A stretch of DNA of 64,000 bases from Lophium mytilinum. Taxonomy: Eukaryota; Ascomycota; Dothideomycetes; Mytilinidiales; Mytilinidiaceae. Position numbers and translations under genes: made by a program. The DNA is taken from NCBI GenBank assembly GCA_010093605.1, contig MU004196.1, positions 212,255 to 276,254 of the forward strand, read 5' to 3'. This document shows positions 31,101 through 31,253 of the stretch, in pieces. Each line of letters begins with the position of its first letter. Positions within the stretch are counted from its first letter, which is position 1. The notes beneath the pieces were generated by a model. That model was not told the origin of the DNA, did no database searches, and saw only the letters and a program-made list of their open reading frames with translations.

Positions 31101-31227
31101 GTTCCGCTGGCGCAATGGTAGCGCGCCAGACTTCTAATCTGGAGGCTGTGGGGTATGTCATTTACCTTGCTGCGAGTAATCATGTCCGCGTACTAATGAT
31201 GTATTAGTTCGAGCCCCACGCGGAATG
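31101..31227 (+). tRNA. tRNA-Arg (anticodon TCT) with an intron-like insert in the T arm
   Basis: Without a 55-nt insert the sequence folds as a perfect 72-nt tRNA: acceptor GTTCCGC/GCGGAAT (first pair G-U), D stem GCGC/GCGC, anticodon stem CCAGA/TCTGG with loop CTTCTAA (anticodon TCT, reading AGA), variable AGGCT, T stem GTGGG/CCCAC, T loop TTCGAGC and discriminator G. The insert (31153..31207) sits exactly between positions 53 and 54. It starts GTATGT, has TACTAAT at 31191 and ends TTAG, as a spliceosomal intron would. The normal tRNA intron site (37/38) is empty. The A box is intact (TGGCGCAATGG). The B box is split after its first base but stays close to consensus (AGTTCGAGCC). T runs follow directly, so Pol III transcription is plausible. 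Confidence 0.85.
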
Positions 31228-31235
31228 CGATTATC

Positions 31236-31253
31236 TTTTTGTCATTTTTTTTT
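31236..31253 (+). terminator. Pol III terminator of the tRNA-Arg gene
   Basis: A run of five T (31236-31240) and then nine T (31245-31253) begins 9 nt after the tRNA 3' end, the standard RNA polymerase III stop signal. Confidence 0.75.

Follow-up and report, generated by a model that had tools for sequence, protein, structure and literature searches.

The tRNA-Arg(TCT) gene at positions 31101-31227 on the forward strand of the window analyzed here, a 64,000-nt stretch (C16:212255-276254) of the 43.2-Mb, 24-contig genome assembly of Lophium mytilinum (Mytilinidiales, Dothideomycetes), raises the question of how a tRNA interrupted in its T arm by what resembles an mRNA intron could be matured, and whether the gene works at all. 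An Rfam cmscan of the window returned a single tRNA, at 31101-31227 (48 bits against a gathering score of 29; E = 3.5e-07), in which 62 nt occupy the place where the tRNA model expects a 7-nt T loop; ARAGORN, run on the window in its bacterial setting, reported no tRNA. This match and a structure search bear out the initial annotation of a real tRNA-Arg(TCT) split at 53/54. The 5′ exon (31101-31152, 52 nt, conventional nucleotides 1-53) ends with GTGGG, which forms the 5′ side of the T stem, and the 3′ exon (31208-31227) resumes with the T loop TTCGAGC, followed by CCCAC, the acceptor strand GCGGAAT, and G73. Removal of the intervening 55 nt (31153-31207) leaves a 72-nt cloverleaf in which all stems are paired, as had been claimed, with a G-T at pair 1:72, and raises the structure score from 52 to 82, a value that ties the highest among the 56 tRNA genes accepted in this genome. 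No other G(T/C/A)..AG removal in the gene scores as well. The spliced RNA has a cloverleaf-like predicted fold (RNAfold, −30.7 kcal/mol, z = −2.10), and for the unspliced RNA folding predicts that nucleotides around the 5′ splice site pair with a stretch past the branch site, a pairing that could conceal the 5′ splice site.

The insert begins with the 5′ splice site GTATGT (31153-31158), carries the branch site TACTAAT (31191-31197) with its branch A at 31196, and ends with the 3′ splice site TTAG (31204-31207). Its length and all three motifs are as initially described, although the stretch between the branch A and the intron end is 11 nt rather than the 15 or so first given. The proposed likeness to mRNA introns of the host holds: three introns in the window, positioned by exact match to L. 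mytilinum proteins, are 50, 53, and 65 nt long, with donors GTCAGT, GTAAGC, and GTAAGT and 11 to 14 nt after the branch A. Two proteins encoded in the window are identical to the acetolactate synthase and the RasGEF of L. mytilinum, and the RasGEF of Mytilinidion resinicola is 93% identical. Shuffling the Arg-TCT insert 20,000 times produced the combination of donor, branch, and acceptor, with 4 registers allowed, in 0.015% of cases. The A box TGGCGCAATGG (31108-31118) has no mismatches to TRGYNNARNGG, and a T5 run resembling a Pol III terminator (31236-31240) starts 9 nt past the gene end, so that these two elements are intact, as reported. The B box AGTTCGAGCCC (31206-31216) is rebuilt over the 3′ intron border with one mismatch to GGTTCRANNCC, because the intron's own AG replaces G52-G53. 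Those features that we took as marks of a functional tRNA gene (a cloverleaf after removal, an A box, a B box, and a T-run) are present together at this locus, as are those of a U2-type intron, namely a GT donor and an AG acceptor at borders set by structure and a branch motif near the 3′ end. From this evidence and that presented below, we consider it very probable that the gene is functional and apparently single copy, that its insert is a U2-type spliceosomal intron, and that this intron belongs to a set of such introns in Pol III genes.

The Arg-TCT gene is one member of a genome-wide pattern. Among 56 accepted tRNA genes, 12 carry a 48- to 57-nt insert outside position 37/38, a count that is a lower bound for this one assembly. 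The inserts are distributed over the D loop, 26/27, the anticodon stem, the variable region, and the T arm. Besides Arg-TCT at 53/54, the T arm is interrupted in Ser-AGA (L038, C5:1138891-1139021); the insert lies in the variable arm of Ser-GCT, in the variable loop of three Asp-GTC copies (L151, L152, and L153), in the anticodon stem of Leu-AAG and of the Ile-AAT gene on C10, at 26/27 in Ala-CGC on C3, and in the D loop of Ile-TAT, Leu-CAA, and the Ile-AAT gene on C3. The structure search places the interruptions of the two Ile-AAT copies at different sites. Nine of these genes additionally contain a canonical 37/38 intron. With the inserts removed, all 12 score 72 to 82, within the range of the remaining accepted genes; their B boxes have no mismatches, apart from the single one in Arg-TCT, and their A boxes have zero to two, with two mismatches left by two of the D-loop introns. 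T-runs start 3 to 21 nt downstream of all 12. On sequence grounds, the split tRNA genes, of which there are at least 12, are real, surprising, and well supported.

The tRNA inventory was assembled from a genome profile search with the Rfam tRNA model, in which 63 of 1346 first candidates were scored (45 matches, 42 above the cut-off), supplemented by searches for B boxes with a T-run downstream (one of them among the first 100 places listed) and searches with joined exons; many B-box places were judged by eye not to be tRNAs and were left out. Of the 62 loci retained, the 56 scoring at least 70 were accepted. We devised the acceptance score, chose 70 as its cut-off, and admitted a GA donor after having seen the genes. 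One accepted gene, at exactly 70 (L039), is doubtful; five loci with tRNA-like features score below 70 and stay outside the accepted set (L095, L096, L105, L041, and L042), and an Ala-TGC-like locus scoring 60 (L040) is a weak candidate. No gene for iMet, eMet, Glu-TTC, Gly-TCC, Ser-TGA, Pro-AGG, or Pro-TGG was found in these searches of one assembly, whose yield is a lower bound. Split tRNA genes of this kind are readily overlooked: the Rfam-model search, with 63 of 1346 candidates scored, recovered four of the 12 and two of those in part, and cmscan on 15 fetched loci reported six tRNAs and missed all three of the D-loop genes supplied. Two observations lie outside the set. On C21 (L037, 184738-186245; contig of 614,441 bases), three clustered AT-rich tRNAs look mitochondrial and were left out, and on C14 (L097, 1601266-1601766) a tRNA-Leu(CAA)-like 3′ end is joined to a stretch that looks protein coding, which looks like a tRNA fragment at an insertion border.

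The 12 inserts comprise 11 distinct sequences, one being common to two Asp copies. When the signals were defined as a donor G[T/C]RNG, a YTRAY branch lying 8 to 16 nt before the end, and an AG terminus, all three were present in 10 of the 11, compared with a mean rate of 0.014% in shuffled sequence (20,000 shuffles per insert), and 10 to 13 nt follow the branch A. The canonical introns at 37/38 differ: none of the 27 tested, which were 9 to 45 nt long and exclude near-duplicates, very short introns, and later finds, contained the three signals, even when slid by up to 6 nt. The donor GTATGT of Arg-TCT recurs in Ile-AAT on C10 and in one U6 intron. Of the three mRNA introns in the window, the one with GTCAGT falls outside the donor motif used. 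The sole exception among the 11 is the Ser-AGA insert, which has a branch and an acceptor and starts with GAAAGC, one base off GTAAGC, a donor common in the set; the insert could be a GA-AG intron, its donor could be damaged, or the base could be an error. We also considered group I and group II ribozymes as candidates. A length of 48 to 57 nt is below the minimum size of either, and the Rfam scan of the window gave the tRNA alone.

Structure and splice signals agree on the insert borders in most of the genes. With the canonical intron held at 37/38, the top-scoring G(T/C/A)..AG removal in 11 of the 12 was the insert that carries the signals, including a three-way tie in Leu-CAA and a two-way tie in Ile-TAT; GA was accepted as a donor in this test because of Ser-AGA. 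The exception, Ser-GCT, arises because the score ignores variable-arm pairs, and after the proposed removal its variable arm matches the Ser-AGA one exactly. In a less constrained blind test, in which the canonical intron was not fixed, the proposed borders were among the best in 8 of 12 genes. As a control, six genes with canonical introns were treated in the same way; only L133 was long enough to inform, and removal gave no rise in its score.

Such introns extend to another class of Pol III gene. The Rfam cut-off was exceeded by 21 U6 genes (L085-L089 and L110-L125, on C1, C4, C7, C16, C19, C23, and C24). Seven of them carry a 48- to 51-nt mRNA-type intron at a single site, AGAGAAG|ATTAGCATGG, and the remaining 14 have none; the U6 introns contain a CTAAY motif with 10 nt after the branch A. 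One U6 gene lies ~1.6 kb past the right end of the window (C16:277826-277925). The presence of such inserts in 12 of the 56 tRNA genes accepted and in 7 of the 21 U6 genes supports one of the three explanations first offered for the Arg-TCT gene, that the spliceosome can act on a Pol III transcript. The other two, an introner-like element and a freshly dead copy, are not supported by the results described below. The single 5S rRNA match obtained in the genome is without an insert. Several U6 genes have a B box ~30 nt downstream of the terminator.

Were the split genes pseudogenes, or only recently inactivated, intact copies elsewhere would be expected to do the work, and Leu-AAG, Leu-CAA, and Ser-GCT each do have a second copy free of such an insert. 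Together with the GA donor of Ser-AGA and the incompleteness of the tRNA inventory, this lends the idea some weight. However, all copies found of Asp (three), Ile-AAT (two), Arg-TCT (one), and Ser-AGA (one) are split; joined-exon searches of this assembly revealed no insert-free copy of Asp, Ile-AAT, or Ser-AGA, and a search of it with the Arg locus matched that locus only, with no insert-free or other TCT gene found. At ten other places with GACTTCTAATC, the anticodon-loop string of Arg-TCT, there was an A or B box in none. Ile-TAT and Ala-CGC are represented by one copy each, from general searches. The scores after removal, within the range of the other genes, and the intact cloverleaf of Arg-TCT are also at odds with decay, as is covariation between split paralogues: the Asp copies covary at acceptor pairs 5 (T-A, C-G) and 6 (G-C, A-T), and the Ile-AAT copies at acceptor pair 6 (A-T, G-C), so that pairing is kept between strands that flank the introns on opposite sides. 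Loss of function is in our judgment very unlikely. The Asp genes also bear on the history of the inserts. L152 has exons identical to those of L153 and a spliceosomal intron identical to that of L151, with unrelated upstream flanks, a mosaic that suggests gene conversion between split copies. Alignment of the L151 and L153 introns shows divergence in their bodies but retention of the donor and, save for one base, of 19 nt surrounding the branch site.

The inserts could instead be copies of an introner-like mobile element that landed by chance in tRNA genes, which is a question of origin and is compatible with removal by the spliceosome. Such an element would fit the presence in a single genome of 12 inserts that are similar in length. 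It would also fit the identical first 15 nt of the Ile-AAT and Ala-CGC inserts, both on C3 (L100 and L101), which may reflect the transfer of an intron from one tRNA gene to another. Against this, a 161-nt query containing the Arg insert matched its own locus only, which yields no further copy of the 55-nt sequence, and among 66 pairs of intron cores, in which the other inserts were compared with each other and with one U6 intron, four reached the floor of 300 shuffles and the Asp pair alone was clearly higher (44 versus at most 21). We judge mobile-element copies to be a very improbable source. A third view assigns the inserts to the tRNA endonuclease acting at a bulge-helix-bulge (BHB). In Archaea, nucleomorphs, and the red alga Cyanidioschyzon merolae, tRNA introns are found in the D arm, anticodon stem, and T arm, even at 53/54, with several introns per gene (PMC4090602, PMC9602550), and these introns are removed by, or tied to, that enzyme. 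In contrast, the L. mytilinum inserts carry mRNA-type signals, and a strict BHB was found in none of the 11 distinct inserts in any equivalent register, judged by a general BHB geometry whose outer helix a test example left unconfirmed. The insert of Ile-AAT on C10 shows a 4-bp central helix but no helices flanking it, and the central helix of Arg-TCT has only two of four pairs. Since a BHB reading also leaves the GT..branch..AG pattern unexplained, we regard this alternative as most improbable.

Spliceosomal removal remains the favored reading, and because introns of the mRNA kind occupy sites outside the usual 37/38 position of the tRNA endonuclease, the spliceosome probably helps make essential tRNAs in L. 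mytilinum. Pol III transcription of each split gene would be directed by its A and B boxes, seen outside the introns or rebuilt at their borders, and would stop at the T-run. U1 would then recognize GTATGT or GTAAGC, U2 would recognize the CTAAC/T branch site, and the spliceosome would join the exons and release the very short intron as a lariat. The 9 of 12 genes with a 37/38 intron would additionally require the tRNA endonuclease and ligase. Insertion sites differ among paralogues and among tRNAs, which argues for repeated intron gain, with reverse splicing into abundant RNAs of the nucleus as one possible route. We think it likely, judging by the gene sequences, that the spliceosome is obligatory for Asp, Ile-AAT, Arg-TCT, and Ser-AGA, that many precursors need two unrelated splicing machines for a single transcript, and that Pol III genes have received introns repeatedly.

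Several known systems share part of this arrangement. U6 of Schizosaccharomyces pombe and other fungi has an mRNA-type intron thought to come from reverse splicing (PMC10484740); the introns proposed here are likewise spliceosomal introns in a Pol III transcript, but their hosts are tRNAs, their sites are many, and several of the isoacceptors yielded no insert-free copy. According to a 2017 paper (PMC5832005), frequent interruption was known in only two small structured RNAs, U3 and U6. U3 snoRNA resembles the present case in having mRNA-type introns in a small structured fungal RNA; tRNA genes do not appear in that list. Spliceosomal introns outside Pol II genes are also described in the nuclear rDNA of lichen fungi and other ascomycetes, and yeast spliced two kinds of lichen-type introns out of Pol I transcripts (PMC8527467); those reside in rRNA made by Pol I, and the L. 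mytilinum introns in putative Pol III transcripts of tRNA genes. A 2021 tRNAscan-SE paper describes eukaryotic tRNA genes as restricted to one intron (PMC8450103). We found no report of spliceosomal introns in tRNA genes in the literature searched, to which subscription papers and preprints were mostly external. If the interpretation is true, essential tRNAs split by mRNA-type introns would break a rule and would offer natural substrates for spliceosome work on uncapped, fast-folding Pol III transcripts, and the independent insertion sites, even among gene copies, would provide material for studying intron gain.

The genome searches also brought up units that combine A-box-like and B-box-like motifs with a T-run and are neither tRNA nor U6 genes (L098, L102, L103, and L135-L139, and likewise L142, L143, L145, L146, L148, and L149). 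By their sequence, these are possibly unknown Pol III RNAs. Some of the units between L098 and L149 have an upstream TATATA, and L098 and L102 resemble copies of each other.
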